From Spirogloea muscicola (Eukaryota; Streptophyta; Zygnematophyceae; Spirogloeales; Spirogloeaceae), in assembly GCA_009602725.1 (NCBI GenBank), contig WELB01000020.1, positions 1,059,623 through 1,123,622 of the forward strand: a stretch of 64,000 bases of DNA. Reading direction: 5' to 3'. The notes beneath the pieces were generated by a model. It was given only the letters and a program-made list of their open reading frames with translations. It was not told where the DNA came from and did not search any database. Made by a program: the position numbers and the translations under genes. The number at the start of each line of letters is the position of its first letter. The first letter of the stretch is position 1. This document shows, in pieces, positions 8,916-60,616 of this stretch.

Positions 8916-11900
8916 TCACTTCCCATGTTCGTCAACGAGGCATTGAGTACCATAACATTGGCCACCGTAGCCATTGATGGCGCAATCGCCAGCCTGGTCA
9001 AAATCGCAGGTTCCTTGCCCATCACAGAAGGCGCAGCAACCATAGGGGCACGGACCACCGCAAGGCGTGTCGATTGGCATGTAGCTGTCAGTCCGGCATA
9101 TGCCCTCACTGCAAAGGCGGCATCACGTCAAGAAAAAAGCTGGAGAGCATTTAGAGAGAAGTGAGAAGCTTTACAGCTCAGCCTTCTAATAAGTATCTAC
9201 GAAATATGCCATCAACTGAAGGAGAGAGCTACATAGGTATGAGTTTTACAATGCTGAGCCCTTCCCACAGGCTGTGGCAGGAGAATGATGGCAAGATGCA
9301 ATGGAAGCAGCTCAACTATATATCTTTCTTTTCACCTGCACTTGCCGTTGACGCAGTCGGGATTGGATGTTGTATTCAAGCGAGTTATGTCGCAAAGAGT
9401 GCCATCTGAAAGGAATTCCAGCGTGCACTTGCCTTTCCTGTAATGTTAAGCACAAGGATAAACTAGTGAAACTCAATTGGGAAGCCCAGGTCTTCATGAG
9501 TGCTGGAGTGTGTTTGCAAGATTGAAAGGATGCCATCTCATGAAGGGCATACTTGTGAAGTCCTGGCTGGGTTACATTCTACAACCTTGTATCTACGGCT
9601 CACACAGGTATGTGGCCTACTTGCACGAAGCAGTAGCACAGCCCTTGTACTCAGCAAAGGGACCTATGTTGTAGTGAATGTCGACTGGAGCATTTAAGGC
9701 TTGTGCGCAATTAGTGCCATCAGGAAGCGGAGAGACCTGAGCACAGGTGCCATTCCTACGTGAAGAAGCACCAGAGGCAAGTAAGAGTAGCACACATGCT
9801 GATGAAGGATGTTAGGCTGAACCAGCCTAACATTAGCACACGTTCACACTAACTGCACAAAGTAATGCCATGATCACACTGCGCATGCATGGGTCATGAA
9901 AGAGCATGTGGCATTGCATGTTCCTTGCGCATCATGCACGGGTTACCTACCTGCACTTCTGGACGCTGCAATAGTCATTCCCAAGGATGTAGTCACATGT
10001 TGTGTTGGCAGTCGCTGAGTCGTCGTACTTGCAATGTCCAACACCACTGCCAAGGATGTCTCACCACTATTAGTGCCCAGCAGAAACGCTCACAGCAACT
10101 CGGGTGCTTGGATGTCAAAAGGTCGTGTGGGTACGATCTTGTTATGCTTCATGAGCCCCTTCAAGAATCTTCAGACACAGATGGTGCCCTACTCGCATGC
10201 TCCCTGTCAGCTCGCACTGGCTAACATGATAGCAGGGGAGCAAGTAGCAGAGAGAAGCAGCAGGATGATGGCTCATGACTGCACATGACCCACGGTGCAT
10301 GATGATGGTAGGCTCACTCGCAAAGGCCATAAAGGTAGCACTGGGGATTATCCTGATCCAGATCTGAGTTGCATGAATAACCAACATTGATGCGCGTCAC
10401 AGCACATGACCCATTTCTGGCGCATGACAGATCACGGAGTCAATATTCGTTTGAGGCCACAATGAGGCCACAACTGAAGTGAGACACATCGAAGCCTGCG
10501 CGGCCAGTGACAGTGACTTGGAGGCAACTGACACCTGCTTTGGAGAGACACGGACTACTGGCAACATCCAGCGGGTATTGCAGCAGCTTTCAGAGGCATG
10601 CTTTTGTAAGCTGCAATTACAGAGGAGACTGTCCAGCTGCAAGGCAAACAGCTTAGACGGATTTGATTGCTCAATTAAAATCCGCTGACCTGCAGCCAAG
10701 AGTCGCACATGGTGGATGTAGTCCTCCAGGCACAGTGGAACACGTCGAGCCATCATCAAAGGCACGTTGTCCACATCTCAAAGTTGAGGCGCTGAAGAGT
10801 TTCAAAGACGGGTATATTAAGAGCACTGCTAAATCTCTTATGAGGTGCTCCTACAGTAGCACAGCATCCACTGCAAGCCAGGGACACTGGACCCAGATCC
10901 CTGTGCAAAAACCTGCAGTTCAATGTCTACCTCTGGCTGGTTGCCAAACGACTGTAACTTACAGCTCTCTTAACATACGTCGGGTACTTACTTGCAGTAT
11001 GCATAGGTACATAGACCCTCAGAGTAGGCCGCAACACTGTCCAGTAGGTCAGGCCGCCAGTTGCTGCAAGTAGTATCTAACATCGGCGAGCAGGCTGCAC
11101 ATGCCCAGCAAGGAGTCAGGATTCCAGCATGAGGGTCAAGGGCAACAGCAAATGCAGGGATGCTGTGCTTTACATCGACCAGCTTCTTTGCCATTAGAAA
11201 AACTCGAGATAATCCACCACAACAACACTTGTGATTTTTCATAGAAGTTCATGCACCTTGGAGAAAGTTCGACTCCAGAATGACTTAAGAAGAGGAAACA
11301 AATATGAGAAGAGAGAGCTGGGGCAGGGGGAGGGCTGATAAAGGGTCAGTAGACCAGAAGAGAGGGGACTGTTAAGTTGGAAACTTAGTCTTTTACCAAT
11401 TCATCCAATCTTCGCTTTAGCAGTAGCTCGACCTCTACCATGGAGGAGGAAGGCTGAGGGTGGGCAAAGGGGGGGGGAGAGGGGAGGTAATGGGGAAAAT
11501 TTGCAGAGGTGGAAGTGATTGGGAAACCCACGTGGTGCAAGTAGTGCCGCGCACTCTGAGGCTGGCCGCTGGAACTTGGCAGGGGCGCTGAAGCAGTTGT
11601 GGCTGTTGTGGATGAGGCACCCCTCTTTTGTGGCGTTAGGTGCTGCACCGTTGAAGTAATTACCGGTGATGTCCACCCAAGCCAAGTTCTGGGTTGACCC
11701 TCCAAACAGGCTCAGAGTGAAGAGCCCCTGGAAATTGTTGTAGGAGAGGTCCCTGCCACATGCAGAGGTTCAGGGCTTTGGGTTAGGATTTAGGATTGAA
11801 GGATTAGGGTTAGGCTTAGGGTTTAGGGTTTGGGATCATTGCCACGAGACATGCCTTTCAGACATCAGCGGCTGGTTCCCCTTACCCATGAGGGCAAGGG

Positions 11901-14900
11901 ACAGCCATTCCTGGTAAGGTAAGACAGCCAACAGCCACTCAGGCGTGAGAGGTAAGGGGAAAGCGGACATTCAAAGGGCTCAGGGTATTGGCCCCTTACA
12001 CTTTCCTCAGTCTTTTTTCTGAGGCTAGCTGAAAGGTTTCGATGTCCCGATTGCCGGAGGAATAATCCTCATTGCCGGTCGCGTCTGGCAGCGCCCCTTC
12101 TAAATGATTCCCTGCCAAGTTTCTGCACGGATACAAGCAGATGTGCACAGGCGTAACAGCACTTCAGGGCTGGGCTGAGTTGCTGACACCAATCTGGTTC
12201 CACTCTGTGTCAGGCCAGTCCTGCTTGTACCACAAGCTTGCCCACTGTTTGCGCACAGTATGTGCACAACACAGGATTGCAAGCCTACAAACTGATTCCG
12301 GGATTGAGTAGTGAAGAGTATGACATGCAAACTTTACGTGCTTTGTCTGCAAGACGAGGTTATCGACTTTGAGTTTGCTCAGGCAGCCAAGAAACTTACA
12401 TGACTGTCAAACTGGAGCAGTAGTAGACAAGCTGTTCAGGATAAAATCCAGTGAGGTTATTATATGACAAATCTCTGAAGAACACAATGCAATGCGAAAT
12501 TGGGTGTCAGAATTCCTCTTGATGACCGTGTTTCTAGCTCGCCACACCCTTGGATCAAAGTAATCCTACAAACGTATGTCTCCGGGCAGCTTGTCTGCAG
12601 CTTTGAACATGCCTACCACAAGCAAGGCGAGACAGAATGGAAGGCAAAAGTGCATGTCATACATGACTTGCAAGTATTCACAGCCACCACCATCCAATGT
12701 TGTGATACGGCCGCTGAGCTTATTGTGCGCAAATTGACTGGAATAGCAAGTCACACCAACTCTTAAGAGTATCTCATCATTCTAAACACAAGAATCTGCT
12801 GGCTAGTTCCAAGGAGCATTAGTCCTTTTGGTTGATGGGCATGTCAACGTCCTTTTTGATGATGCAATGCTCGATGACTGTCATGCTAGTCATTAGCATC
12901 CAGAGCTGCAGCATCGCACAACTTCTTCAAGCAGAGGTTCATACTCACTATTTCTGGAGCACAGTCCAGGAGGCAAGGGTCAGTGGGGCGCCGCTGAGAT
13001 TGTTGTAATCCACAATCCTGTCCAGTGCCAGAGATTCAGTCAAAGTGGCCTAGGGCCAAGTCTAACTAGCAGAAGCACAGGTCGGACTGGGAGCTGATGT
13101 AAGACTATGGTCGAGATGTATGGTGACCACGTACTAGCCGTGTCAGTAGTTGTAGCAAGAATACGCCACTCACAGGATGACGAGCTTCTTCAGTTGTGCG
13201 ATGGTGGTCGGTATGCTGCCCGTGAGATTGTTGCAGCAGATATGGCTGCAAATGGTCCACGCAAGCGTGTGACAGGAGGTGATGGATAAGGCAGGGTGCT
13301 TGGGAGGGCTCAGACTTTGGCATGGGCACAGCTTTCCACAAGTAGCTGCCAATGCAACTACAGGACTTATGTGCTAATGCAAAGGAGAACATGGACGCAG
13401 AAAGAGCATCGTGTGCATTTTTGGAAACGGCTTCTGAATGTGTGCTCCTTTCGGCTATGAAGACAAAGGTGTGCTCCTTGTAGGTTCAAATGGTCATCAT
13501 AGAAGGACTCACAGCAGGGTGAGCTCGGAGAGCTGCCCGATGCTTTGTGGGATGCTCCCCGAAAGGAAGTTGTGGTCAAGATTCCTGCAGGCACCCACAG
13601 TGAGAGGTGCACCTTGCAAAGCCTCACATTTTGCAGGTCTCACAGTACTAGCAGAGAAGAGAGGCACGGGCAACAGCTGCACATTGAGCAAAGCCAGCAG
13701 AGCCTGAGTGCGCACAGAAGGGAGAGTCTGGTGAGATTGCCAATGGTGGAGATGATTGGTCCTGTCAGCCGGTTGCTGTTGAGATACCTGGTGCATCATT
13801 GCACGTCAAGTGGGTGTGGTCAAGGCTAAGGCCACGATTACAAAGATGAGTACATCAGCTTATATCTGGTGGCTGCCGAAGAGGCAGAATAAGAGGACTA
13901 GAGGAGCCACTCACAGATCGAAGAGGTTGGAGAGTCGTGCAATGGTGGTCGGTATGCTGCCCGTGAGGTTGTTGCAGCAGAGATGGCTACAAAAAGCAAC
14001 GCAGATTCCACGACACAAGGTATGTGACCATGGATGAAACAGGGAGCCTGAGAGGCTGAGGCTCTTTGCATGGGCAGCTTCCTGCGCCCAAGTGCCTGAG
14101 CAACCGCAGCAAGTTGCTGTCGGCCTACAAACGGTGCAGCACATGCATCACGAACATATGTGCACAATGTTTTGTTAAGTGTCTTTCAGCTTTCAGGGCA
14201 TGACAACAGCAATTCCTCCTGAAAGGCCACGTCGATCCTCACAGAAGAACTCACAGCAAGTACAGGTTGGAGAGCTGCCCGATGCTTTGTGGAATGCTCC
14301 CCGTCAGCAAGTTGTTGTCGAGGTTCCTGCAGGCACCCAAGTGACCTTGGCACCTTGCATGACCTTGCAATCCTTGGATATTAATCCAATAGCAAAGAAG
14401 AAAACCACAGGCACAGCTGCACACCATGACAGGGGTAGAGCCTGAGTGCGCACAAATTGACGAGCCTGGCGAGGTTGCCGATGGCGGAGGGGATTTGTCC
14501 TGTCAGCCGGTTGTTGTTGAGATACCTGGTGCATCATTGTACTACATAAGTGTGAGTGACAAGCTTGACACACAACCACGACTACTAGCAACACCAGCTT
14601 GTGTGAGGCGGTTGTCAAAAAGCTGCATGAGAGCAAGAAAGCGGCCCTTACAGATCATAAAGACCCAAGAGCTGACTGATGGTGGTCGGAATAATGCCCG
14701 TGAGATTGTTGTAGCAGAATTGGCTGCAGAAGGGAGCACAAAAGGTCCACAGTCAAGCATGTGACTGATCACGAAGTGGACAAGGAGCTTGGGAGGGCTC
14801 AGATCCTAGGCATGGGCACAGCTTTCCACAGTTGAGCTGTCTGAAGTGATCTGTGTGAAAAAAGGAGAACAGAGCTTCAGCACAAGACATTATATGCATC

Positions 14901-16480
14901 TGAGCAGCCTGGTTTCTTGTGCGTGCTGGAGCCATCTGGCCCTGACAACGATGATGGGCTCTAGCAAGCGATCATCACTGAAGAGCTCACATGGAGGACA
15001 GCTGAGGTAGCTGCCCAATGCTCTGTGGGATGCTCCCCGTTAGAAAGTTGTGGTCCAATGACCTGCAGGCTCCATGTGACAATTGCACACTGCATGAGTT
15101 GTGTCCTCAGGTCTTGTGGCACTAGCAGAGGAGAGAAGCACAGGAATAGCCGCACATGGATCAAAGCGAGCAGAGCCTGAGGACACGCACAAAGAAGCGA
15201 GAGTGGTGCAATTGCCAATGGCGGAGGGGATTGGTCCTGTCAGCCGGTTGTTGCTGAGATCCCTGGCGCAGCAATGTGTGACAGTGTGTGAGTCAGGGAG
15301 TGGGTGAGCAACAGGAATGACCGAGAAGATGGTTACCACCAGCTTTCGTGCGGTGGCTGCCACAGATGCGGTATGCAGCAAGGAGCCACTCACAGCTGAA
15401 ATAGCTCAGATAGTTGTGTGATGGTGGTCGGTATGCTGCCGGTCAGGCTGTTGCAGCAGAGTTGGCTGCAGACGAGAGTGCAAAAGGTCCAGAGTCAAGC
15501 ATGTGACTGATCAAGGATTGGACAGGGGACTTGAAGGGTTCAGAATCTTGCATGGGCAGCTTCGGACGACCCTGGCTTCTTGGCCTTGACATCCATTTCG
15601 TGCTCTGGGTGGGGCCCGTTAATCATCAGGGACAAACTCACAGATATTCCAATTTGGAGAGATGCCCGATGCTGTTAGGGATGCTCCCTGTCAGGAGGTT
15701 GTGGTCGAGGTAGCTGCAGGCAACCATGTGACACTTGCAACATGCTGATCTTGCATTTCTCAGCTTCCATACCACTAGCACTAGTCGAGCAAGAGGGACA
15801 AAGCCCAAGGCCACTACCACAAGTGTACAGAGCAGTGGCTTACAGCTCAGAAAGTTCCGTCAGGTTTCCAAGGGAGGGGCTGATGCTCCCGTCGAGGTTG
15901 GCATTTTGCACCACTCTGAGGGTGCACAGAGAGCCCACATCACCCCTTGGTGAGAAAACCAGCCATGCCTGCGGAGCTGGGCATGTGCATCCCCGCCAAC
16001 TGAATAAGCCGTATGCTGACCAAGTGAGGCCATCAGGTAGATGGCCGGCAGCTTGAGGGGCCCGAAAACCCAAAGTGGAGTACTTACAGCCGGGTGACGC
16101 GGGCAGGCTGTTGGGCGGTCTCCGCCTCGCAGGAGATACCATACCAGCCGGCGCAAGGGTCGTCGCCGACCCAGGTCGACAGGATCGGCGGGTTCAGCAC
16201 GGCGGCCTTGAACTGCTGCAGCGCAACAACTGCACCATGCGCTACCGTTAGGCCACCCGTAAGCGCGGCCTCGGGAGCACGCTGTAGCGGGGCTGGGTTA
16301 AGTAGAATGCGGCTGCTGTTATGAAGCGAGCGGCCGTTAGCGCCAGCCATGGCGTTCACGGCAGCTGGGCTGACGAGGCGCACGGTCGGGGTGCGGGGCG
16401 GCGAGCAGCCGGCGGCGGAGGGGGCGCTCCGCGGCGCCGCCGTCAGCGGCCGCGGNGCGGCGCCATCGGGCGGCGGCGGG
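8916..16480 (-). CDS. Gene 1: secreted LRR and Cys-module protein, about 26 exons
   Basis: Predicted extracellular protein. Exons from 5' to 3': leader 16384-~16480 (ends RLLAAPHPD); LRR N-cap 16088-16229 (LVALQQFKAAVLNPPILSTW, then CAGWYGISC); LRR exons 15844-15915, 15642-15713, 15394-15465, 15191-15262, 14991-15062, 14652-14723, 14454-14525, 14255-14326, 13915-13986, 13716-13787, 13513-13584 and 13174-13245, each exactly 72 bp. Four variable LRR exons lie at 12949-13017, 12675-12737, 12400-12474 and 12000-12122, then the C-cap at 11532-11752. Cys-module exons: 10992-11094, 10690-10791, ~10193-10290, 9951-10046, 9621-9755, 9336-9437, and last 8916-9108, ending in TGA. Typical motif: NLDHNFLSGSIPQSI. 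Introns are phase 2. Oddities: no in-frame ATG is visible for the leader (an N at 16456 sits there and LINE tails abut it), one Cys exon (~10193-10290) is shifted by one base and lacks a clear acceptor, and one donor appears to be GC (gcaagt). Ligand and role are unknown. Confidence 0.75.
11765..11840 (-). repeat. Degenerate telomere-type repeat in an intron of gene 1
   Basis: TTAGGGTTAGGCTTAGGGTT and TTTAGGGTTT are visible on the plus strand, just upstream (in gene sense) of the C-cap exon. This resembles the TTTAGGG telomere unit of green plants and many green algae. A related tract lies at 44437-44460 in gene D. Confidence 0.55.
13174..15713 (-). repeat. Tandem ~740-bp unit of three LRR exons inside gene 1
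   Basis: The string TGGTGGTCGG recurs at 13202, 13943, 14680 and 15422, spacings 741, 737 and 742 bp. Each unit carries an NxRLTG exon, an NLDHN exon and an HLCCNN exon with their introns. Paralogs A, B, D and E have one such set each. The array holds 3 full units and part of a fourth. Confidence 0.85.
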
Positions 16481-20063: not shown

Positions 20064-23041
20064 ATGGCGCTGCCGCTGGCGCTCGCCGCCGCTCTCGCCG
20101 CCACTCTCGCCGTCGCCGCCGTCGCTGGGGTGACGGTGGACGCCATCGACGCCGATAGCCCGGGGCGCCGTCTGCTTAACGCGCCGCCGCCGCTGCCGCC
20201 GCACCCCATTGTCATGCCCTCCCCCACCTCCCAATACACACTCCACTTCCTCCTCATTGGCTGGCTTGGGGATGCGCTTACCCATTCGTGGTAGCGGCTA
20301 GCTTAGCTGCGTGCTATATTAAATAGTGGGTTCCTGTGGAACGCTGGCCATCTCTTTTGGGCTCCTTTGGGCGCTCCTAGCCCTTGCCCACTTGGAAGAA
20401 CCTCTTCTCCTCCACAGCAGCAGTGGGCTTTCCACCGCTCCAGCTCGCTGTGAGTGCACAGCTGTACAAACTTTCTCTACTGCTGAAGAATGCACCGGAG
20501 TTCCACGGCCCCAGCAAGTCAGCAGCGAGCCTGATGGCTGGTCGCGGGCCCCTCGCAGTCAATGCCGCTGTCATAATCTCGCTCCTGGTCCACCATGTCA
20601 AGCTCGTCACGCCTCGTCTTGTTGATGTGCACAATGGCCCATGTTGCCTGTGGCTGAGCCTGCGCTTCTCCAGAGTGGTCATCAATGCCAACCTCAGTGG
20701 CACTATTTCGCCCATGATTGGCAATCTGACAAGCCTGACATGCTTGTAAGCTGCTCTACTCCACTCATCTCAGGTTGCATGAAGAGGGAGGTATCGTCTA
20801 AGAGTCGCTGCTTCCAATCAGTTGCAGATTGTGCTCAGCTTTTGCCTGCTTGAAAGCAGATCTGTCCACCAATGTAAACAATTTACATCCTCCGAAACAT
20901 TGAGTACACTATCTTCCACTTGCATGTTGACGCGTCAGGTATCTCTATGGCAACCGGCTGACAGGAAGCATCCCTTCCACCATTGGCAACCTTGCCCAAC
21001 TTTGAAGGTGCATATTAGGAAGGCAAGATAACCGAGGGCCCTTGTTACGAAATGCCTGCAGGAATCTGGACCACAACTTTCTGACTGGGAGCATCCCAAG
21101 CACCATTGGGCAGCTTTCAGTGCCGGAGCTGCTGTAAATACATGGCTTTCATTCTACTTTTTCTCACTTAGTGCAATTTCAAGGTGGAATACGTCTGTCC
21201 ACGCCTAGAAGGTATGCGCTAGGATGGGTGGGGCGAGCCAAAAGTCGTCTGCGGCTGGTTCGCCAGCTAGGCAACCAGCCCTATCGCAAACAGCTAACAC
21301 GGCATTCTTAGATCAGAATCATGAAAGATGTCACAGAGGAGCTCGACGTGCTGGCAATCTGTTGACAGGATCTTTTGTTTTTGCCCTCATGCAGGCATCT
21401 CTGCTGCAACAACCTCACCGGCAGCATACCCTCGACAGCCATCTCCAAGCTCAGCAAACTTGTCATTCTGTGAGTGTTGGGCATCATTCTTACATAGCTT
21501 GCGTAATCCTGAATTTGAGGCAGTTCGCACTGCCTCAAAACAATGTTCCCACTTGTCTTGGACACTGAAGTGTCCATCAGAACGCTCTTACTTACAATCC
21601 TCTGCTGCACTTCTGTAGGGCATTGGACTACAATGGCTTCACCGGAACATTTCCTTCAAACATACTGGGTTTATCCAGTCCATTCTTCGATGCAATTCAG
21701 AAATTGTAAGTTCAAGCATGCTACATGATGAGGTTGCCTGGCGGCTAGCAACCATGGAGTTCTTCATACTTCTTCTTGATCATCAATACTTTTCTCCAGA
21801 TAAGCATTGCCTTTGTAGCATGGGAAATGATGACAACAACGACAAGATCTGTCACTTACAACTCCAGCTGATGAGAGTGGCGAAATTTGCGAAGTGCAGT
21901 CAAGTGTCACACAACAAATTGACAGGTTCCCGATGATTATGGGCAAACCAGCCCCCTTACTACTCTGTGAGTCCAGAACACCCCTTCTTGTGCATTCTCA
22001 CAAGCTTCTAGCTTGCATGGGAGACATCTTCCACGACCTGCCCAGCACAAGCTAGGTGGAAGCTGTGTGCTCGTCCAAACAGTGACAGAACATGTGTGAG
22101 AAACTCGGGTGTTGCATTACCATGCACAGGGACTTTTCTTACAACAACTTCATTGGCTACCTTCCTCATCATAGCTTTGAGAGTGAAAGCCGACTGCAGG
22201 TCCTGTAAGGCCCCTGCCGAGTTTCTGTGATTATAGCCTGTTCAGGTGATGCCAGATATGACAAGTACTGAATGTGGTCTGGCATGGTTGTCGCAAGATC
22301 GCCCTTCCGCGGAAGGAGGGCGTATCATCTGCCGTGAAGGGGGGCACTCTTCAGTATTTCTTGTTTGAGAGGCACAATCCGTGGAGGGGCTAGCTTGAAC
22401 TGCAGGCAGACTGGGTGAAGAGTATGCATGAGAACTTCACTGACAGCAGCAGGTAATTGAAGTCCATGTGGCATGTTCACTGTGTTGAGAAATCTTGCAG
22501 GGAACAATCTACAAGGGATGCTGTATCCCGAGTTCGTCTCGACAAGTCTGAGGAAACTGTAAGCAATCTTGCCTCATAAAGACCACCCTTCCTGAAACTA
22601 GACCACCCTGCCTGCTCACATGTGGATTTGGCGAACAACATAGGCTGAGCTTGCATTCTTAGATCCTGAAGCTTGGTAATAGATAGTGACACCCAATCCC
22701 TGTTCCAGCCGGTCTCCTGTCCGCTGCTTTTGTGACAAGGCCTCTCAAAATGCATGTCAGAACCTGTCGCCTCTGATGGACATTGAAGTACGTGCTGTGG
22801 TTCTGGTGTTGCAATTGGCTCAGTGATGTTTCCTACAACAAATCCGAGGGCGTGTTCCCCTTGGACTTGCTTCAAGGCAAGCCGGATCTGGTGTGGGTGG
22901 ATGTCACTGGTAACTACTTGGTTGGTTCAGCCCCAAATGCCACATTCCAAGGGCAAGCGCTCCACCTAAGCAATAACTGCTTCAGGCCACCTGCAAAGTT
23001 CCAGAGGCCGGCCTCAACATGTGCAGCATCACCTGCACCAT

Positions 23042-23403
23042 GTAGGTGCATGGTCGTGCTCCCCCTCTCCCCGCCCCACCCCCCCCTNCTCGCGCTCTCT
23101 CTCCCCTCCGCTTCCTTCCACCTACCCCCACCTCACTCCCACCTTCCCTCGCACTCTCCCCCCGCCTCTTCCCCAGGCTACACTCACTCTCCGCTTCCTT
23201 TCCTTACTCCCCAGTACTTTTTTCTCTCATTCCTCTCCTCCCCCATCTCTCTTCATCCCTCCTTCCGATGACACCCCCTTCCAGATGCACAGACGTTCCA
23301 AAGTTTGTGAAGCCAGTCTGCAAAGCACGGCAGGAATGTTTTTAGCACAGTATGCTTGCTCTTGTTTCAACCTGTCAAGACGACCCGTTCTGTGTTTGTG
23401 CAG
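23042..23403 (+). other. Pyrimidine-rich intron of gene A
   Basis: A C/T tract over 200 bp long lies directly after the C-cap exon. Matching introns in genes 1 (11400-11530), B (27830-28230) and E (58160-58260) are also C/T-rich on the coding strand. An N at 23088 marks an unread base inside a run of C. Confidence 0.6.
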
Positions 23404-24196
23404 CTTGCTATAGCCAAGGCCCTCCAAATAACTGCAGATACTCCGTGCCAGATATTGACCGACAATGTGTCACCAAGATGTGCAAGTAGGTGAGCAACTG
23501 CTGTCCAGCTCATTCCTGTGCTGGTCTTGGAGCAAAAGTATGCTGCACCCTGAGCCCAAGTTCCTAGATCCTTTATGGAGAAGGTCTAGATACTGTTGAC
23601 TCAGGTGTAGCACCTGATATGTCGGTTTTCCTGGGCTTGACCTCTTGCGACCCTACAGCCGCACAGCCGTGACTCCACGATGCACGATCCAGGTCCACAA
23701 AAAAGACAACACTCCCTGCAACTATGTCACCGGAGCTGATTACGTGACCCAATGTGCCAATCTTACCTGCCGGTGAGTGCTTGGTCAAAAGTAACAAATT
23801 TCCCATCTTCCGTCGGTTGCCTGCGAGCCCATCTTCTCTATGAGCACCTTGCCAAGTCAACAGGCTATGTATGGCTCACACCTGCTCACGAATCTTGTAT
23901 GCAGGGCCAGCATCTGCACTTACAGGGGTCCTTTGTGTGTTGATCAACACTGCTATCAATACCCACCTGGATCTACTATTGACGAATATCCTTGGGATGC
24001 GCCATGTTTTGAGGTGCGGTGCAATAGGTAGGTATTTTCATAGGGAATAAAATTCGTTGTCCAAAGACAAGATTAAGGCATGTATCCTGCATTGGGGTGC
24101 CAAAAATTAGGGCTGAGGTTGAGGTATACGATTGAGCTCAGGTGTTCTGAGATTCTAAAGTTCTTCTCTCGCAGCAACGGATTGTCGATCTTCCAC

Positions 24197-24280: not shown

Positions 24281-25067
24281 AGCCAATCTCATGATATCTC
24301 CAGAGAATGAGCGTGCGTGATGGCAATGCACCTTCTTCAGCAGACTTACCAATGAGGCATTACCATCCTATGTCAGTAAAGCTTTGACGCTGTGCCTGGC
24401 GCTGTGTCTCTGTGTGAAACAAGACAAGCAAAATACGTCCACGCAAGCCTGCCCTTGCTTAAATGCCAATGTCTTTCATAGACCTGCCAGGTATAAAGGC
24501 CACTCCTTCCAATGTAAGGCAATGGCGGACCAATTGTTGGACATATGTCTCACAATGGAGGCAAACCTTTGCCTACAATCTTCCAATCGTACTTTGCATG
24601 CACCCTCAGCGGCCTCGTGTGGAGCTACCAAGGCATAGCAGGTGGGGAATCATTGCATCAAAGCTGAACTAGCAAGTGACATTTGCCATCATCGAGCATT
24701 GGCTATCTGCTTCAGTGGCACAGATGGAGTTTCGATTGATGACTACTTCATTGCCTAGATTACCTGAGTCCCACGTGAACAGGGATTGCTGATGATGGCC
24801 AGCGTCTGCAAGAAAGCCTACAGAACACTCGCTTGGCAACAGATCACCTACCCACACAGCAAGCTGGTGTCCAAATTCAAGGCCACCCCCATCAAATTTT
24901 TCTCCAGCAGCAGCTTCCCGGAGTTCACCACGAGGAGCCCACGGCCAGGGCCTGTCCTAGTGGCCTCTACAGCGGCTTTACTAACGCTCACCAGCCGCAC
25001 TCGTCAGTGACGCTACCCAGTGGCTTTACAAGCCGCTCCTCTAACGTTCACCAGCCGCGCACTTCAG
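24281..25067. other. Region between genes A and B
   Basis: No RNA gene, mobile element or signal-peptide exon was recognised. Near 24960-25067 an open frame carries an imperfect repeat (SGFTNAHQPHSSVTLP, then SGFTSRSSNVHQPRTSVAP). It runs into the N-cap exon of B, but the paralogous acceptor lies at 25067, so it is probably not translated as part of B. Confidence 0.4.
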
Positions 25068-30510: not shown

Positions 30511-31542
30511 GCGAACAATCGTTTGAATATGTAGTCTGATGCTACTATGGACAGTGATATCCATGCACAAACTGTAGACTGCAAAGTAGCTGCCCCTGGC
30601 AGTCAGAGTAAGCGCTCAGATTCTGATGACAAGTAGCCAGCCGGGCTTGAGGCGCATGAGTCGCCAGACTGGCACCTTGTGGACTCTGGAATAGGTGTCA
30701 TGCCACAGGGCATTATACAACATAACCAGAGTAGATCGGCACGAGAATGCGGAATGTACCAGAATCCACGTGGCCGGTACAGTCACTACTTACATATTAT
30801 CTATGAAAAGCAAGACTGCGGAGAAAATCGGACAGCTTGCTCCAAGATTGTATAAGCATGACAATACGACAATGAAGCAATGCGGGTCATCTTCGCGAGC
30901 CTTATGATATACGTATTCCGTTTTTCGATACAATCGACGAGCAGCGTATATACCAGCAACACTAAGGTCAGAACAAGGTCGTTATTCTGTTGGTATGAAC
31001 CAGATGAGCCTCGTTTTGTATGCAATGTCTTCTTTTCAAGTTCTGCAGTCCATCCCCCGTGCCTATGGTAAGACCTTATTCTTTGGCGCTTGCATTGCAC
31101 ATTGCCACTAATAAAGTTTATTACTGTTGTGAAGCATGCGAAAACAATAAGGTGGATGCATCTGGGAACGGGGGGGAGATGGCTACTTCTTGTTCCTATC
31201 ACGTGTCTCCTGTGCTTCCTTTTGCTATCTGGTCGATAAAGGCTTTAATCAGTCAAAAGCACAAGCCGACTGCAGCCCAACCAGTACAAGAACGTGATAA
31301 CAATCTAGCATATCAGAAGCTTGCCATCTCATCAATACATAGTAGAATGAAATGCTGAAAAAGTGTGCATCTCAGCTCGTACCTGTCTAAAACGCCTTGT
31401 GCAAGGTACAGTGCAATGGCAATACGTGTGTTACGTGTGCTCTACTATAAGAATCTCTAGTAAGTGCACTGTGCTGAGAATTCAATCTGGTTGAGCACAA
31501 TCCATGCTGCAGTGATGTGTGCGGCATTCAACACATGGCTTC
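30511..31542. other. Intergenic region between convergent genes B and C
   Basis: Only short open frames without family features. The region serves as the 3' flank of both genes. I see no mobile element here. Confidence 0.4.
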
Positions 31543-39590: not shown

Positions 39591-39840
39591 TCAGATACTT
39601 AGCCCGATGTGCCGGGGCATCCCTTTACCCACTTCGTTGATCTTTTCTCTGGGCAGGGAGGACCGGCACAGCTGTAATGCATCCCACCGTTTTGGGCGCC
39701 AACCAGTGCTCTTAGCGGTCACATGGTTGGAAAAGTTGCGGGCAAGTTCCACCGAAATTGCCTAACTTTGAGGCCGTCAGCTTCGAGACGCACGAAACAT
39801 TCCTGTGCCGTTCCGGCAGCCGTCCCCTCATCGTCCTTGA
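39591..39840 (-). repeat. Block shared with 61617-61900 (element X, inner part)
   Basis: The reverse complement begins with GCCGGAACGGCACAGGA and aligns through GCCCGGCACAT-type sequence to ATGGCTGCCACCCAC. On the right arm this block runs straight into the X leader. Here LINE-B and the NUMT separate the two. Confidence 0.6.
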
Positions 39841-40613
39841 GCGACCTGGCTTAGCCAGGTGACCCCTAATTTGCTGCCACTCACATGCCGAGATGCCCCA
39901 CTAGACCAGAAGTGGTGGGCATTCACAACCTCCTTCGCAATGCCCTGGCGGGCTTGATGCGCGACGCCGGCTACTGTGCGGTCGTGGAAGTCAACAACAT
40001 CATGCCTATCACCACGGACGCCCAGGGACGTCATCATCGCCGCGCACTTGACATTGTGGGCGTGCAACCCGGTGGAGGACCACGGGCCCTGGTTGACGTT
40101 GTTGTTACGGAGGCATATAAAGACCCAGCATCGACACACATCGCTGGGCACGCAGTGAGAGGTGCAGAAAACTGCGGCACTACTCCGATTACCCCCAATG
40201 CGATCAGCTCCTGCCAGCGGCAATCGACAGCTTCGGCTGTCTGGGTCCTCCTTTCCACACCCTCCATCAAAACATTGCCAATCTAGGCTACACTCGACGT
40301 GCAGATGTGTTTCCGGCTGAGATGGGCTTGTCAGCTGCATATCTGTCGCTCTTGCGACGACGAGTTTCGGCCTGTTTGCAGCGTGCTCAGGCTAGTGCCT
40401 TGCACCAGAAAGCTGGGCGAGCTCTAGTTGGTGGCAGAAGGGCTCCGTTTCTGGCATCTAGTATTCATGCATCGATCAGTGACCTTTGTCTTTTGACCGT
40501 GCTTATTGAGCGGGTCAATCTGCTGTAGACTATGTAGATCTTCAGATGTGCTTGCCTTTGTACTTGGCCATTTGGCCTACATTTGTTTCTAATACACGGA
40601 ATTCTATCCTAGA
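39841..40613 (+). mobile_element. LINE-B 3' half, second copy, head-to-head with the first
   Basis: Plus-strand frames: MPRCPTRPEVVGIHNLLRNA, GGGPRALVDVVVTEAYKDP and LSLLRRRVSACLQRAQASAL. A frameshift lies between the two long frames (near 40.2-40.3 kb). The tail GTACTTGGCCATTTGGCCTA ends at about 40613. The two LINE-B copies are close relatives with 5' ends facing, so one may be an inverted duplicate of the other. Confidence 0.75.
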
Positions 40614-45100: not shown

Positions 45101-47985
45101 TCACGCTGAGCTACATTTGGTGCTTATCTAACTTCCTAGAAGCGTCCATTACAACTGCTGTGCTGCTCAGGCACTGGGAAATCTTACAGGACTCGGAGAT
45201 AAGCTTTGGTAGAGTCTAACAGATTGACCGGAAATGTTCCAGTGAAGTTGTTGTATGATAAATCCCTGGATGGGGCAATGCAACAAAGAATGTGCTGATC
45301 AGTTGTGCTTCTAAGACCATGTCAGCAGCTCATCAGACCCCAGAGCAAGGAGCCTGCTTCATCAATTTGTCTGTGGGCAGCTTATGGACTTGAACAACTT
45401 CATGCCTGCAACTCAGAAGCTCATGCAAGGCAGAGGGGTATAATGAATGGCGAGTCATACACGATTTGGAGGCCGATATTCAAGGTGTACACTTCCGGTA
45501 CATTGATGGGGCCAGTCAACCGATTGTGAGCCACTTGACTGCATTGGCAGAAGTACACCACTCATGCGCTTTAGCTGGTGATTTAGCAGTGCACGTGCCA
45601 ACAGCTACATCTTGGATTCGATCTGTAGAAGCTTGATATAAAAGTTTCGTACTACATGAAGAGTTGAATTGATCTCAGCATATGTGCTGGTGGCTGGGAC
45701 GTATGAGTCATGAGTGGACAGGGCTCAAGAGAATGGAAAGCTTTGCAAGTAAATGCTTGGTTCTCACACTTTCTGAAGCGCTCCCATGTTTTGTATATTG
45801 GGGATTCCACCAGTGAGGCCGTTGTAATCCAAAATGCTGTAGAGATGGAAAATCAGCACTGATGCTGTACAGATGAATGTAAAGGTCACAATGAAGTATG
45901 AAGGCCTAGGCTCAAGGCTAACAAGCTGGAGCACCGGCAGCGTGCGAAATAACTGTGGAGGATGGGGAAAGATCATCTGCAAGATCTACAGCACCAATCA
46001 ATTCCTGTAGGGCGAGAGAGAAACTAGCCACACACAAGATGACGAGACGAGAGAGTTGTGTGATGGTGGTAGGTATGCTGCCTGTGAGATTGTTACAGCA
46101 GAGATGGCTGAAACATTGAGCAACAGAAGTTCACAGTTGAGTGTTTGTCAAAATCAGGACAAGGATCTGGGAAGGCTACAAAATACGTCTCATAACACTG
46201 CACATCATGCTGTGCACCTGCCCCCTAAATCAGCTTGCGTAGGCAGCTGCAGGACCAGCTTTAACTTGTGATACCAATACAAAGCAGAGATGATGCAGCA
46301 GAAGCTCATAGAACTCCACAAATTCGATAGCGTACCTGCTTCTTCTGTATCTGCTTTTAAGGTCAGGACAACACATATTTGCACCTGGTTGGTAGCTATG
46401 ATGCACATTGAGGTGCTTAAGACAAGAACTCACAGCAGGGTCAGCACGGATAGCTGCCCGATGCTGTCTGGAATGCTCCCACTTAAGTAGTTGTGGTCAA
46501 GGTTCCTGCAGGCGAACATGTAACATGAAGCACAGTGACCTTGCTTGATCTTCATCTGGCCACTCAAAAGCGCAGCAAGAACAGCAGAGAAGCTCATGCT
46601 GCAAGGTGAGCAGAGTTTGAGTTGCGCACAGAAGTTCGAGCTGGGTGAGAGCACCGACAGTTGGGGGGATGTTTCCTGAGAGCCGATTGCCATATAGGTA
46701 CCTTGCACAGCATGGACCACAGAATCAAGGTCAGGGTCTCAGTGACACTGGTGTGCAATCAGTTGACAAGCACGAGAAGCACCAGCTTGTACATGGCTGC
46801 TGCCAAGAGGTTTCTGCTGCGAGTACTGCAAGCAGGAAATTGTGGAGAGCAGGTCTCGCAAGCACGTCAGGCCCGTCAGATTGCCAATGGAGGCGGGGAT
46901 GCTCCTGTTGAGGTTGGCGTTCACGACCACTCTGCAATGCACACCCTTCGCCGCACTCGGATCAACCCATGTCGACAGACCAGAACGGTCTGCATAGCTC
47001 TGGCATTTGCACTTGTATGAATGACCTAAGAGAAGCTGTGCTTGCTTATTGCCACCAGAGTCCTGGTGGTGACGTTGGACACAGTGCGAGCCCCATCGTG
47101 AAAGGCGTGCAGCCCGCCACCAACCTGGGGCTCGGGCGTCTTGCCCATCCGAGCGCCTTCAAGGACCGGTATTGGTCTCATACTGCATACTGCATACTCA
47201 TAGCGAGCTGACGCAGTTGGTGCTCACGTTGCACTGGATGCCGTACCAGGCGCAGGCGCCACCCGTGGTGTGGCAGCCGGCGCAGGGGTCGAGCCCCACC
47301 CAGCTCGCCAGTATTGGTGGATGAAGCACGGCGGCCTGGAAGTCCTGCAGGGCCGCCACTGCACAAAGGAAAGCGCTCTTGGCGGCGCAGCCTCAGCGGA
47401 GCACACTGGACTAGGACAGCAGACAAGGTCTTGCAAACGGGCCCATGGCTGCAAAGCGCCAGGTCAAGGGGGAAGGACGAGAGGTAGGCCCTTTCAGTGG
47501 AGGGCGATGGCTGTGATATGGCGAGCTTAGAAGAAGTTCTGACGAGTAAAATTCGAAGGGACCAGCAAAGCGCTGCAGCACACAGCTACTCAAGTCCGGA
47601 GAGAAACAGCTCTCCCAATATAAGGAAGTGGCTATGGAAGGCCAGCTCAAAGGATAAGCCCAAAGGAATGTACAAGGTCCGTAAAGGCCGGATGACGCCA
47701 AAAGCAGGATATTCTTCTCCACGGAGTCAGCGAGTGGACAGGGATCGAACGTCTGGAGGACCGATGGCATGGCTGCGAATCGCCGGGCTGAGAGGGAAGC
47801 ACGCGGGCCTAACGGCGCCTGACGAGGCTAACGGGGCGCTCACGGCCGGGGTGCGGCGCGCCGGCCGGCAAGAGCCGCCGCGCAGGGAGCTCCGTGCCGT
47901 CAGCCGCGCCGTAACCCGCGGCGGCGAGGAGGGCGACGACGACGACGGTGGCGGCGCGCAGCAGCAGCGGCGGCGGCGGTGCCAT
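42171..47985 (-). CDS. Gene D: secreted LRR and Cys-module protein, best-preserved start
   Basis: Exon 1 at 47844-47985 starts with the signal peptide MAPPPPLLLRAATVVVVALL and continues to ARRLLPAGAPHPG. N-cap exon 47202-47358 (LAALQDFQAAVLHPPILASW). LRR exons 46860-46931, 46630-46701, 46434-46505, 46036-46107, 45768-45836, 45463-45538, 45188-45265 and 44832-44921; C-cap 44502-44722. Cys exons 44007-44112, 43699-43794, 43410-43511, 43175-43270, 42867-42992, 42580-42681; last 42171-42360, ending in TGA, with CGGPCPYGCCAFCDDQGTC. Reading frames are open in every exon. Two donors are changed: AT instead of GT after the N-cap exon (47201), and GC after the first LRR exon (46859). GC donors often work, an AT donor of this form should not, so the gene may be newly crippled. 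A 5'-truncated LINE-A stands about 45 bp upstream of the ATG, where the promoter should be. Confidence 0.75.
44437..44460 (-). repeat. Interstitial TTTAGGG-type repeat in gene D intron
   Basis: AGGGTTTAGGGTTTAGGGTTTA is seen on the plus strand, in the intron just after the C-cap exon. Gene 1 has a weaker tract on the other side of its C-cap exon. Confidence 0.75.
47480..47700 (-). mobile_element. Two LINE-A tails in intron 1 of gene D
   Basis: GGCGATGGCTGTGATATGGC (about 47503) and GTGGCTATGGAAGGCCAGCT (about 47628) on the plus strand. Intron 1 of gene E has the same two tails in the same order and orientation relative to the gene (54740-54905), so they are older than the D/E duplication. 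Confidence 0.65.
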
Positions 47986-48029
47986 GGCGGGGGGTTGGCT
48001 GGCGGGGGGCGCTCCATCTGCCGGACGAA

Positions 48030-48485
48030 GGGCCCCATTACTTCTGAGACCGGCTACGCTGCGAAGGTAGCCGAACGGAAGAAGCTGCACAAGTACAAGG
48101 ACCACCCGGCGGGTGATACCTTTTACCCCCTGGCCATGGACATCCATGGGTGTTACGGGGGTCGGTGGTCCTCGTTACTTTCGCTGCTGGCCTCTCAAGC
48201 TGACCAGCGGCGCCGGGAGCAGGGTGCTGCCCTTCCCGGTGGCTCGGTGCCTTTGGGTCTGGTGTCCTGCTACCGTATGCGACTGTCTATGTCCCTGCAG
48301 CGCTCCCAAGCGCTTGCTTTGCACCGCCGCGCTGGTCGCGCCCTTGCAGCAGCCTCTGGCTTGCGCAGCGGGGTTGCTCTTCCTCCCCTCAGCTCATCTG
48401 ACTTCTTACTGCTGACACGGGGGTATTGAGGGCGCCCTGTCTGCCTAGCCTTTGGCTCCGTCATGAACACCTGTATGCATCTGGC
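48030..48485 (+). mobile_element. LINE-A, 5'-truncated, next to the start of gene D
   Basis: One open frame runs to TGA at 48427-48429 with AAKVAERKKLHKYKDH, FYPLAMDIHGCYGGRWSSLL, YRMRLSMSLQRSQALALHRR and AGRALAAASG. These match the C-terminal end of LINE ORF2 proteins. The tail has CTGGCTGGCATTTCACAGCC. The copy is young enough to keep an open frame of more than 120 codons. Confidence 0.75.
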
Positions 48486-53824: not shown

Positions 53825-53905
53825 TTCTGGCCCCCTTCTCGTACTCTGTTCATTCCTTTTTGGGCTCGCTTTTCCAGCCCCTATTCTCAATGGGCAAGCA
53901 CTTCC
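53825..53905 (+). mobile_element. LINE-A tail
   Basis: CTGGCCCCCTTCTCGTACTC then GGGCTCGCTTTTCCAGCCCC and CTCAATGGGCAAGCACTT. Very close to the tails at 16.7-16.9 kb. Confidence 0.65.
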
Positions 53906-54905: not shown

Positions 54906-57900
54906 CTCCTGGAAGGGTCTCCCTTTCGTCCTTCACCCTCAGCCTGGCGCTTCGCAGCCATGGGCCCCTTTGCAAGACCTTCTCTGCTGTCCTAGTCTAG
55001 TGTGCTGCCGCCGCTTGCTCCTGAGGCTGCGCCGCCGAGAGCGCTTTCCTTTGTGCAGTAGCGGCCCTGCGGGACTTCCAGGCCGCCGTGTTTCACCCGC
55101 CTGTACTGGCGAGCTGGGTGGGGCTCAACCCCTGCGCCGGCTGCAACACCACGGGTGGCGCCTGCCCCTGGTACGGCATCCAGTGCAACGTGAGCACCAA
55201 CCGCGTCAGCTCGCTGTGAGTATATGAAGCCCCAAATCCCAGCCCTTGAAGGTGCTCGAATGGGCGAGACACCCAAGCCCCGTTCTGGTGGCGGGCTGCA
55301 ATTCAAGATGGGGCTGGCAGTGTCTCCATCGTCATCACCAGGACTCTGGTGGCAAGAAGCAAGCACGGCCTCTCTTAAGTCTCTCCACAAGTGCACATGC
55401 CAAGCTCCGCAGATGATTGTGGTCTGTGGATATGGGTTGATACGACTGCGGTCAAGCCTGTGCATTGCAGAGTGGTCGTGAACGCTAACCTCAACGGGAG
55501 CATCCCCGCCTCCATTGGCAACCTGACGGGCTTTACGTGCTTGTGAGACCTGCTCTTCCTGCTCGCAGGACTTACAGCAGAATCCTCTTCGCAGCAGCCA
55601 TGTACGAGCTGGTGCTTCTCGTGCTTGTCAACTGGTTGCACACCAGTGTCACTGAGACTCTGACATTATATCTGTTGTGCATGCTGTGCAAGGTATCTTC
55701 ATGGCAATTGGCTCTCAGAAAACAATCCCCCGACTGTCGGTGCTCTCACCCAACTCGACCTTCGGTGAGCAACTCGAGCACGGCTCACCTTGCAGCATGA
55801 GCTTCTCAGTGATATGAAGTCTTCTCGAGTCAAAAAACCCTTAGCTGCTTCATTAGACAGTTCTCCATTTTTTGCACAAACAATGCACAAACAAACACGC
55901 TTTACGTGGACAACAAGCGTATGCCTTTCTAGAACAATTCGTAACACTTTTGTCTTTTCATGACTATCCTACGAATATTTCTGAAAACACAATTCTTATT
56001 ACTCTCTCTCGAGATGTATTGCGATTGTTTCCGGAGATACAGAAATGCTTTACTCAATGCGCTTTTGAGTGGCCAGATAAACACAAGCAAGGTCACTGTG
56101 TGCTTCATGTCACATGTTCGCCTGCAGGAACCTTGACCACAACATCTTAAGTGGAAGCATTCCATCGAGCATCGGGCAGCTATCCCTGCTGACCCTGCTG
56201 TGAGTTCTTATCTTAAGTACCTCAATGTGCATCATAGCTATCAACCAGGTGCAAAAAGTTGTTGTCCAGACCTTAAGCAGAGACAGTAGAAGCAGGTACA
56301 GTATCGCATTTGCAGCTCATAGCCATAGCAGAGGTTATGAGCTTCTGCTGCATAACCCCTGCTTTTTATTGGTATCACAAGTGAAAGCTGATCCTGCAGA
56401 TGCCTACGCAAGCTGATTTAGGGGGTAGTTGCACAGCATGATGTGCAGTGTTTCGAGTCAAAGTTTGTAGCCTTACCAGATCCTTGTCCTGTAATTCACA
56501 AATGCTCGACTGTGACCTTTTGATGCTGAATGTTACAGCCATCCCTGCTGCAACAATCTCACGGGCAGCATACCTACCACCATCACACATCTCTCTAGTC
56601 TCGTCATCTTGTGCGTGGCTACTTTCTTTCACATCTTACTTGAATTGATTGGTGCTGTAGATCTTGCAGATGATCATTTGCCGTCCTCCACAATATTTCG
56701 CACGTTACCTGTGCTCCAGCTTGTTAGCCTTAAGCCTAGGCCTTCATACTTTGCTGTGACCTTTACCTCCATCTCAACAGCATCAGCAGTTTTTCCATTC
56801 GTACAGCATTCTGGATTACAACAGCCTCAGCGGTGGAATGCCCAGCATATCAAAAAAGGGAGCGCTTCTGAAAGTGTGAGAGCCGAGCATTTGCATTCAG
56901 AGCTTGCCTTTTTCTTGAGCTCTGTCGACTCGTGACTCATACGTTCCTGCCACCATGCCCTAAACGCCGGCACTTCGTGTAGTAGCAAATGCTTGTACCA
57001 AGATCCAACAGATCGAACCCTAGTTGCAGCTGTCGAGCACGTGAAAGTCTTCTGATTCACCAGCTTGCGCGCATGAGTGGTGTACTTTTGCCATTGCAGT
57101 CAAGTGGGGCACAATCGGTTGACTGGCCCCATCTACTTACCGGAGGTGTACAGATACTATGGTGTCTACCGCCTCGAATGTCGTGTATGACTCACCATTC
57201 ATCCTTCCATCTGCCTTGTATAAGCTTTTGGATGCGAAGCATGAAGTTTTTCATATCCATGAGCTGCCCACAAACACAAGATGAAGCAGGCTCCTTGTTC
57301 TGGGATCTGACGAGCTGCTGACATGGTCTTGGAAGCACAACTGACAAGCAGGTTCTTCGTTGCATTGCCCCATCCAGAAATCTATCGTTCAACAACTTCA
57401 CTGGAACACTCCCACGCAACCTTTTAGACCATTAAAAATCTAATCTCAAAGTCCTGTAAGTTCTCCTAGTGTCTGAGCGGCAAGCTTCTGTCAAACAGAT
57501 CCCGTACGCTTCTAGGAAGTCAGATAAGCAACAAGTGTAGTACAGCGTGACAATGGCAGGTAGAGTGTATTCTTAGATAACAAGCACATTAGGCACCAGA
57601 CGTGCGTGAGTCCTTGAGTCACAGGAGGACAAGGTGGCTCCAGGCGTGCAAAAAGTGGGCAACAAGATCTGGCTCCTAGCTGCTACTAATTTGTATGTGT
57701 GTGTGTGCTTGTGTATCCCCTGTTCTTGCAGCAACATTGCAGGGAATCACTTCGGAGGGGCGCTGCCAGACGTGTCGATGCTAGAAAACCCTTTAACAAC
57801 CTTCGGCAGCTGAGAAAATTGTAAGGGACAGTTGTTTTGAAGCATATGATGCCAATCAGGCATGCCACTCCTCTCCCATCACAGAAGGAGAATCCGGTTT

Positions 57901-59640
57901 CCAAGTCACACATCTTGCCCGTTATCGGCTTTGTGGCAGGGACATTTCCCTCAACAAATTTCAGGGCCTTTTCAGTCTGAGTGTCTTTCGGTCGACCCAG
58001 AACTTGACGTGGCTGGATATCACAGATAATACTTCACTGGATTAGCACCCAACAATGTCACAATTCAGGGGCGTCCTGTTCACGTGAGCCTCAACTGCTT
58101 CGACCGCCCACAAAAATGGCAGAGGCCAGCTTCAGTCTACGCGGCCCTACCTGCGCCACGTGGGTGCCATAGATGCTCCCCCCTCTCCTCATCGTACCCC
58201 ATGCTCCTTACCTCCCTCTACCCTGCCCTGCCCCCTTGTCCCGGCTCTTCTGGTTCCTCGTAGGCCCTCGTGAAGCGCATGAAGCGCCCTGGATTTCTGC
58301 AAAATCAATATGTCAGGTACATTGAGACTGCAAAAGTTGCTAGTAAGATCGATCAGTTCATGCAGGATGCTTGGAATGTATGTGACAGATGTATTGCTAT
58401 TTCGTATTGAAAGTGTCTCTCTACTGGGCATGAGCAGCCTGCTCGGTGGACGCAGACAGCCTCGTTGCGTGAACTGGCAGCCAGGCTTGGTTAGCCGATC
58501 CCTACACAGTCGTGTGTGTCAGCGTCTTGCAAGTAAGTGCTGACTGCAGACCTTGAGAGGCTGTTGAGCGCAGCTGCTTGGTCATCTGTCAGCTGGAGAC
58601 ATCAGAAAACAGGACTCTTATTTCAGCATCTCTGGCTTGCTAGTATACCGCATGCCTCCTGATATTAGAACATTCCATCACAGTGATAGGGCGTTGCAAG
58701 TATTGCATCCTCAAGTTTTCACTTGTTTTTGCCACTCTCCAGCTTTACGACCTTACGGTGCACGCGGGCTAATGACGATGATGATCGACGTTGTAACTTT
58801 GTTGCTGGAGATGACTCCTCTTGCGCCGATTTCGGCTGCCGGTCAGTGCTTTGACCTTCTTGCCAAGCAATGTGCTCCTTCTTGTTGAGTTGTTGAGCAG
58901 ATCGGCGCCCTATTTCTACAACAGCGTGCTGGGCGAAAGATCCACTGGAAATGGAGTTATCTCAAGTTGGAACCTGTGCTAAACAGCCTTGAAGATTTTG
59001 GGCATGCAAGGCTGACCTGATCGTATTTGGAGCAATGTACTCACAAGTCAGCTGCTGGCTTGGTGATCGTACTGTACAGGAATGGGTCATGTGCAGTCAT
59101 GGGATATGATTTTGCTGGATATACCTGCCATACATACGACATCAACATATCCTCAGTGCGAGCTGCGTGGAGCATGCGAGTGAGGCACCGTCTGTTTCTA
59201 AGGATTTCTGGAGGGGCTCGCAAAGTATCAGTGAGATTGTAGAAAGACGTCTTCTGAACATCCAAGCACCCGAGTTAGATGTGAGCAATTCTGCTGGGCA
59301 CTAACACTGGTGAGACATCGTTGGCAGTGGCGTCGGACATTGCCTGTATGACTATGGTCCGACCGCCAACACAACATGTGATATCCCTGGGAGTGACTTC
59401 TGTAGCGTCCAGAAGTGCATGTAGATTATCCGTGCATGATGCGCGAGGATCATGCAATGGCACATGCCCTTTCATGACCCATGCATGCGGACTGTGACCA
59501 CGGCATCACCTTATGCAGATAGTGTGATACATGTGCCAATGTTTAACCTGACATCCTTCATCAGCATGTGTGCTAGTCTTATTTGCCTCTGGTACTTCTT
59601 CACGCAGGAATGGTACCTGTGCTCAGCTCTCTCCACTTCT

Positions 59641-59799
59641 CTAGCCACTCGGACTTGCATCTCCTGACTAGAGGTTACTGAGCGTTCCCTGGCTGATGTC
59701 TTAGTCCTAGTCGTTCGCACTCAGGCTCCCTCAGACCTTGTCCATTCCTTTGGGCTGGCCTTTCCCAGCCACCAGTCAATCTGGCCGCGCTTCTTATTT
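59641..59799 (+). mobile_element. Severely 5'-truncated LINE-A inserted in an exon of gene E
   Basis: The insert keeps only the last ten codons of the LINE ORF (SDLHLLTRGY, stop ~59680) and the 3' tail with TTTGGGCTGGCCTTTCCCAG. It interrupts the NGTCAQxSPLPDGTNC exon. The flanks CTCCACTTCT (59631) and CTTCACTTCC (59800) look like a target-site duplication of about 10 bp with two mismatches. Gene D has no insert here. Confidence 0.8.
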
Positions 59800-60616
59800 C
59801 TTCACTTCCAGATGGCACCAACTGCGCGAAAGTTTTGACGCTATAAACTACGTCCCAGGTCCCTTTGCTGAGTACAAGGGCTGTGCTACTGCTTCGCGCA
59901 TGTAGGCCACATACCTGTGTGAGCCATATAAATATGGCTGTAGGATGATACCCAGTCAGGACATCACAGGTATGCCCACTTATCGAATGGCAGCCTTTCA
60001 ATCCTGCAAACACATTTCTAGCACTCACGAGGACCTGGGGTTTCCACTAGAGTTTGACTGTGTCATCCTTGTGCTAAACAATACAGTAATGACAAGTGCA
60101 AGCTGAACCTCCTCTCAGATGGTACTCGTTGCAACATAACTGGCTTGAAGACAACATCCTCTCCCGACTGTGGAAAGTGCAGGTTAAGCGAAGACATATA
60201 TCTGAGCTGCTTTCATCGAATCTTGCCATCAGTCTCCTGCCACGCCTGTGTGAAGGGGCGAGCTCAGCATTGCAGAATAAATACTTAAGTAGCGCTCTCC
60301 GTGAGTTGACAGCATCTTCCATGGATAACTGCTAGGCTGAGCTGTAAAGCTCTTCAGTTCTCTTGGGATCATTTCTCTTGAGCTTCCTCCTCTCCAGCTT
60401 GACTTGACGTTATGCCGTCTTTGCAGTGAGGGCATCTGCCAGACTGTCAGCTACAAGCCAGTCGACACGCATTGCGGTGGTCCCTGCTCCTATGGTTGCT
60501 GCGCCACCTGTGATGAACAAGGAACCTGCATCTTTCACGATGGTGACAACTGCCACATTGGTAATTTTTTGGGCACATATGAAGGTACTCGCCGCGTTAT
60601 AGATATTTGTTGTTAG

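Follow-up and report, generated by a model that had tools for sequence, protein, structure and literature searches.

The window analysed here is a 64,000-nucleotide stretch of DNA, C20:1059623-1123622, C20 being the contig that holds it in the 153-Mb, 471-contig assembly. It contains six copies of one gene type: A, C and D on the minus strand, and B1, B2 and F on the plus strand. In gene A, every exon that could be placed is open. D and B2 are nearly complete with one defect or more each, B1 and C are incomplete, and F is a pseudogene. LRR exons with the pattern xLxxNxLTGxIP, most of them exactly 72 bp long and bounded by AG and GT, were tallied in every copy (16 in A, 7 each in B2 and D, 6 each in B1 and F, 4 in C). 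They are followed by a 222-225-bp exon that joins the last LRR to a Cys cap (in A, B1, B2 and D), the first Cys exon M0, at most five four-Cys exons and a terminal exon that is rich in Cys and contains the stop. The placed features are:

8916-16236, minus strand: gene A, with an N-cap exon (upper end approximate), 16 LRR exons, an LRR-cap exon, six Cys exons and a terminal Cys exon with its stop at 8916
13174-15713, minus strand: LRR unit L1-L2-L3 of A, four copies with a period of about 740 bp, the first without L1
11528-11752, minus strand: LRR-cap exon of A, with the last LRR and an LRX-like NC...QRPASEC cap; weak donor
9336-11162, minus strand: Cys exons of A (M0 10992-11162, M1 10690-10791, M2 10318-10416, M3 9951-10046, M4 9621-9755, M5 9336-9437)
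8916-9108, minus strand: terminal exon M6 of A, with ten Cys, ending in a stop; no membrane anchor seen
20064-24027, plus strand: gene B1, with a signal-peptide-like start (ATG at 20064), LRR exons, a cap exon (22824-23045) and Cys exons up to 24027
25067-30475, plus strand: gene B2, with an N-cap exon, LRR exons, a cap (27604-27825), Cys exons and a terminal exon with its stop at 30475
31543-36197, minus strand: gene C, divergent, with LRR exons (34512-35804), Cys exons (32386-33803) and a tentative terminal Cys frame (31543-31803)
42171-47985, minus strand: gene D, with a signal-peptide exon (47844-47985), an N-cap exon, 7 LRR exons tallied, a cap (44498-44722), Cys exons and its stop at 42171
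55058-60616, plus strand: F, a decayed D-type copy with its terminal stop at 60616

The outer limits that an earlier, sequence-only reading gave to this family coincide exactly with the stops of A and F. That reading described six genes of strict architecture. Six copies of one type are present, but F is a pseudogene, D and B2 carry defects, B1 is incomplete, C is divergent and the first intron of D is in phase 1.

Structure of the individual copies

The frame of gene A and most of its splice sites recur in a paralog, L055, which has the same exon order. The M0 acceptor of A is absent from L055, so that exon boundary is uncertain. The copies of the L1-L2-L3 unit in A are spaced by 742/736/651, 741/737/742 and 738/737 bp, and they extend beyond the exons into introns. 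When A is compared with L055, the four longest off-diagonal matches are 68-71% identical and the diagonal is 84% identical, which indicates that the duplication of this unit predates the split between the two genes. It had been proposed that any exon could be copied without losing the frame. The copies in A do keep the frame, but the copied unit is a three-exon segment of about 740 bp and not a single shuffled exon.

Gene D recurs in two paralogs, L056 and L057. Its hydrophobic start, MAPPPPLLLRAATVVVVALLAAAG, is followed by a phase-1 intron and then leads in frame into the N-cap exon, which matches Pfam LRRNT_2 (24.6 bits, cut-off 20.7). The donor after the N-cap exon is AT in place of GT, and the one after the first LRR exon is GC; in L056 and L057 these sites are GT. 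In B1, a phase-2 donor is missing at two LRR exons, and none of the placed exons is a terminal one. The frame of B2 is broken in an M4-like exon (29635-29744). Four LRR and five module exons were counted in C. A minus-strand frame at 31482-32000, with the hydrophobic stretch MGAQATTFAIAITLATTLTAVG, overlaps the tentative terminal Cys frame of C in another frame. The defects of F are an in-frame stop in the exon at 57378-57455, frame breaks in the cap and M2, and an insertion in M4. The insertion, at about 59640-59795, shares 94% identity with a segment of L056 that lies about 1.9 kb past the 3' end of the D-like gene there, and appears to be a recent repeat copy. The window contains three N, at about 16.4 kb, 23.1 kb and 54.5 kb. 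Two of them fall in G/C-rich stretches where signal-peptide exons are expected, and the starts of A and F are therefore not cleanly readable.

Other elements are found between and beside these genes. A Copia-type retroelement at 3357-7471 contains gag (PF14223, E 5.6e-12); more of its frames resemble copia reverse transcriptase and RNase H by eye, but two tested gave no such Pfam match. At 38483-40528, a repeat is present in two inverted copies with long open frames (by eye). It looks like part of a retroelement, and Pfam was blank for two of its frames tested. A similar frame is located at 47488-48429 upstream of D, and another in L032 on contig C242.

Exon model and comparison with paralogs

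The internal exons tallied with a guided exon model number 78: 46 LRR, 4 LRR-cap, 4 M0 and 24 four-Cys-type exons. Acceptors are AG in 78/78 and donors are GT in 77/78, with GC in one; these splice sites and the phase symmetry of the tally are largely by construction, because the exon finder demanded phase 2-2 and AG/GT. At five exon ends, a manual choice overrides the finder (A 13513, D 46860, F 55471, 59328 and 60087). Two finder exons were left out of the tally (C 35862-35993 and D 45491-45538), and five anchors gave no exon. The expected single 72-bp exon per LRR is found exactly in 32 of the 46 cases, and the others measure 69-123 bp. M0 exons are 135-171 bp long. The four-Cys-type exons measure 84-135 bp, in agreement with the proposal that each Cys module occupies one exon of roughly 90-130 bp. 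Phase-2 introns had been read nearly throughout. The recurrence of frames and most splice sites in L055, L056 and L057 favors this, but the signal-peptide intron of D is in phase 1.

Longer matches to the three paralogs are 80-89% identical. Pooled dN and dS are 0.115 and 0.232 for A and L055 (4010/4720 intron positions identical), 0.051 and 0.137 for D and L056 (2853/3272), and 0.105 and 0.279 for D and L057 (2731/3336). Across the three pairs, intron identity is 82-87% and dN is at most half of dS. These pooled values contain three faults (N-cap exons read in the wrong frame, the LRR exon at 15642 misaligned, and M0 of L057 shifted), and the misread exons probably push dN up. Replacement change is held down and introns drift approximately like silent sites, which is the pattern expected of coding exons. 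Together with the frames and most splice sites common to all three paralogs, it indicates that the exons are real.

These comparisons also bear on the possibility that the genes are decaying remnants without function. The broken F, the two unusual donors of D and the frame break in one Cys exon of B2 would fit such a state. However, dN is at most half of dS over whole genes and A is open through all its placed exons, and we consider this explanation very improbable.

Distribution, Cys modules and likeness to LRX proteins

The genome setting agrees with the source of the DNA. LHCII of the genome matches chlorophyll a-b binding chains, and a brown algal origin was rejected on this ground. GRAS, which marks land plants and Zygnematophyceae, gave sets of matches of similar score on different contigs, which fits a triplicated genome. 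Triplication has been reported for Spirogloea (PMC7994812). Malectin_like domains gave 15 matches. A radial-spoke search of the genome found no match, and its control was also silent.

With the cap exon of A as query, 52 genome matches were obtained at E up to 1, corresponding to 51 places since F is split. C20 alone has 12 of these matches (11 places). The weaker cap matches may belong to other LRR genes. A search with the Cys array of A gave 67 genome matches. Each of them lies on the same strand as a cap match and no more than 5 kb downstream of it, and the zone so defined covers about 0.08% of the genome. The matches fall into 17 loci, with 6 on C20, another 6 on C99 and single ones on C453, C274, C100, C24 and C3. 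The other 34 cap places have no module match with the A query. This number of loci is a lower bound, because the query also misses the modules of B1 and C, and those 34 places may still carry modules. Among the 140 LRR_8 matches listed (150/705 candidates scored), none is on C20 or C99 and many are in open frames longer than 200 aa. This suggests that one exon per LRR may be a hallmark of the family within this genome.

Similar exons exist elsewhere. Vertebrate gonadotropin receptors, which are membrane receptors, have LRR exons alike in size and phase, but their tail is unrelated. Phase-2 LRR exons of similar size in these receptors, and one LRR per 72-bp phase-2 exon in brown algal ROCO genes, are described in PMC11378527. 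The brown algal LRR-ROCO genes thus share the exon style, but they encode a ROC-COR GTPase, none of which was found in the seven pieces scanned here against Pfam. The family described here is also probably secreted, belongs to a different lineage and shows duplication of a three-exon unit. The sequence-only reading suggested an undescribed class; its exon style is already known from brown algae, and those of its Cys modules that were scanned are without a family match. In the titles and abstract openings of mostly non-subscription literature, no published description was found of LRR proteins with Cys arrays as a zygnematophyte family, or of green-algal LRR exon shuffling.

Hydrophobic, signal-peptide-like starts are found in D and B1, judged by hydropathy alone, and the family proteins are probably secreted, as had been proposed. 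Terminal exons end in stops in A, B2, D, F, L055, L056 and L057. No kinase family was found in the seven pieces scanned against Pfam, and no transmembrane or GPI-like tail was seen by eye at the C-terminal ends, in line with the proposed absence of kinase and anchor. The LRRs are of plant type, as expected: besides the LRRNT_2 match, the LRR block matches LRR_8 (Pfam, E 1e-42), and the best PDB matches of the LRR part are plant receptor ectodomains, FLS2 first, then GSO1, PEPR1 and others. Repeats of the LxxLxLxxNxLTGxIP type are shared with these receptor kinases and with PGIP. PGIP is a secreted LRR protein with Cys caps and little else, without the module array; here a long Cys array follows the LRR. 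The receptor kinases continue into transmembrane and kinase regions, neither of which was seen before the terminal stop here. Given that the LRRs resemble those of receptor kinases, the genes could encode receptor ectodomains whose membrane and kinase exons were overlooked further downstream. What argues against this is that A, B2, D and the paralogs of A and D share a homologous terminal exon in which the frame ends at a stop, and we give the idea hardly any credence.

The Cys modules were said to match no nameable domain, and this holds for those scanned. Pfam to E 10 gave no family for the Cys pieces scanned from A (M1-M6), B2 and C, NCBIfam gave none for those of A and B2, and a phmmer search of the PDB gave no match for those of A. 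Cys gaps of 9-11, 7-22 and 4-5 are found in 20 of 22 aligned modules. The two outliers come from F, where the last gap is 2, and from C, where the first gap is 12 and the fourth Cys is missing. Structure prediction did not reveal how the Cys pair: the single-module model has a pLDDT of 64 and a pTM of 0.23, and that of the terminal exon M6 of A has a pLDDT of 72 and a best PDB fold match at E 3.5, which is not convincing.

In contrast to the modules, the LRR cap resembles that of LRX cell-wall proteins. The profile A5, built from the cap only of 11 members, was searched against 177,635 PDB sequences at E up to 10 and matched LRX2 alone (E 0.017, domain E 0.32). Against Cys-fixed shuffles, LRX2 beats 1000/1000 and PEX1 998/1000. 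With the longer profile A2, only the best stretch of LRX2 spans to the second cap Cys (among 60/61 matches listed), and with A4 (54 rows) only those of LRX2 and PEX1 get there. When the cap exon of A alone is the query, LRX2 ranks twelfth and its best stretch lies in the LRRs, outside the cap. The likeness is faint, since the LRX2 tail as query finds nothing in this genome, not even the family caps. The cap may also be shared more widely, because the PDB holds few plant LRR families.

The relation of the modules to the LRX hinge is weaker than that of the caps, and is a lead only. Module profiles A1 (20 rows, some with junction residues) and A6 (22 rows) were used. A1 has one PDB match, the Cys tail of LRX2 (E 2.1), and A6 has none. 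The LRX2 hinge beats 1000/1000 Cys-fixed shuffles with A1 and 978/1000 with A6, and the PEX1 hinge is equalled by 411/1000 and 423/1000, respectively. Cys spacing is 12-9-4 in both hinges and mostly 9-11, 7-12 and 4-5 in the modules. The four-Cys module might be an LRX-type Cys hinge amplified in tandem. The family would then be an algal sister of the LRX lineage, with a rod of disulfide modules tethering the wall as extensin does in land plants. We regard this as unlikely.

LRX proteins consist of an NT, an LRR, a Cys-rich hinge and an extensin region; the hinge is folded back, with disulfides, onto the LRR, and the extensin tail appears to anchor the protein in the wall (PMC7357788). Like LRX/PEX, the family is probably secreted, shows no kinase and has plant-type LRRs. 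Its Cys cap, NC...Q(R/K)...EC, and the Cys-rich region right after the LRR may correspond to the cap and hinge of LRX. The number of repeats differs: LRX has 11, and here LRR exons number 7 in D and B2 and 16 in A, to which the cap exon adds one repeat. Instead of an extensin Ser-Pro tail, many four-Cys modules are present, with one LRR per exon. An extensin Ser-Pro3-5 domain was looked for by eye in the tail of A and the terminal exons of B2 and D and is absent, so the family is not a member of LRX. RALF (PF05498), a partner of LRX, gave no match in the genome, and the control was also silent. Penium is a zygnematophyte. An LRX1-like protein is reported from the secretome of this charophycean alga (PMC6027541), and one survey lists LRX as absent from four algae, including Klebsormidium (PMC4769139).

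Selection on the LRR face and possible roles

Selection on the LRR concave face was analyzed in 18 exon pairs from four comparisons (9 from A-L055, and 3 each from D-L056, D-L057 and L056-L057). D-B2 (3 exons) was kept separate, and the misread exons of the pooled values were not used. Residues are changed at 13/90 concave positions (0.144) and at 25/324 others (0.077), most often at position 21 (7/18 pairs). Silent change is higher on the concave face too (dS 0.373 and 0.156), so omega there (0.28) is close to that elsewhere (0.25), with small counts and low power. Among D, L056 and L057, 0/27 beta-strand cells are replaced. No diversifying selection was observed on the concave face, in a test of low power.

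These results concern the possibility that the proteins are apoplastic recognition or decoy proteins, similar to PGIP or RLP ectodomains, which diversify by exon copying to follow pathogens. Clustered copies on C20, the pseudogene F, the varying LRR number and the more frequent change of concave residues are consistent with it, and brown algal analogues have been called candidate immune receptors (PMC11378527). On the other side are dN values that exceed half of dS in none of the three paralog pairs, the similar omega on the two parts of the LRR and the unreplaced beta-strand cells, although the power is weak. Selection thus lends no support to the recognition role that the sequence-only reading had raised. 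We consider diversifying recognition possible but rather unlikely, and less likely than an LRX-like role in the matrix.

The 36 Cys after the LRR cap in A could also mean that the proteins are structural components of wall or mucilage, cross-linked through their Cys arrays, with the LRR a mere spacer. Modules found with the A query are always near an LRR cap. Against this, the LRR frames are under purifying selection and the cap is conserved, and we consider this role distinctly unlikely.

The explanation that we favor, with about even confidence and from sequence comparison, is that the genes are a tandemly expanded family of secreted, LRX-like extracellular-matrix LRR proteins, in which a disulfide-rich array would replace the extensin tail. 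They may work like LRX proteins. The LRR solenoid would bind a conserved extracellular partner, such as a peptide, a receptor ectodomain or a glycan. The Cys array, located where LRX has its hinge and extensin, would form disulfides and stiffen the protein, and may hold it in the wall or mucilage. The absence of extensin repeats counts against this explanation.

The family provides a green-lineage instance of LRRs that each occupy a phase-2 exon of their own, together with duplication of several exons at once. In land plants, LRX proteins connect the wall with receptor kinases and peptide signals, and how they arose among algae is unclear. Algal genes that combine an LRX-like cap with a different tail could reveal which part arose first.
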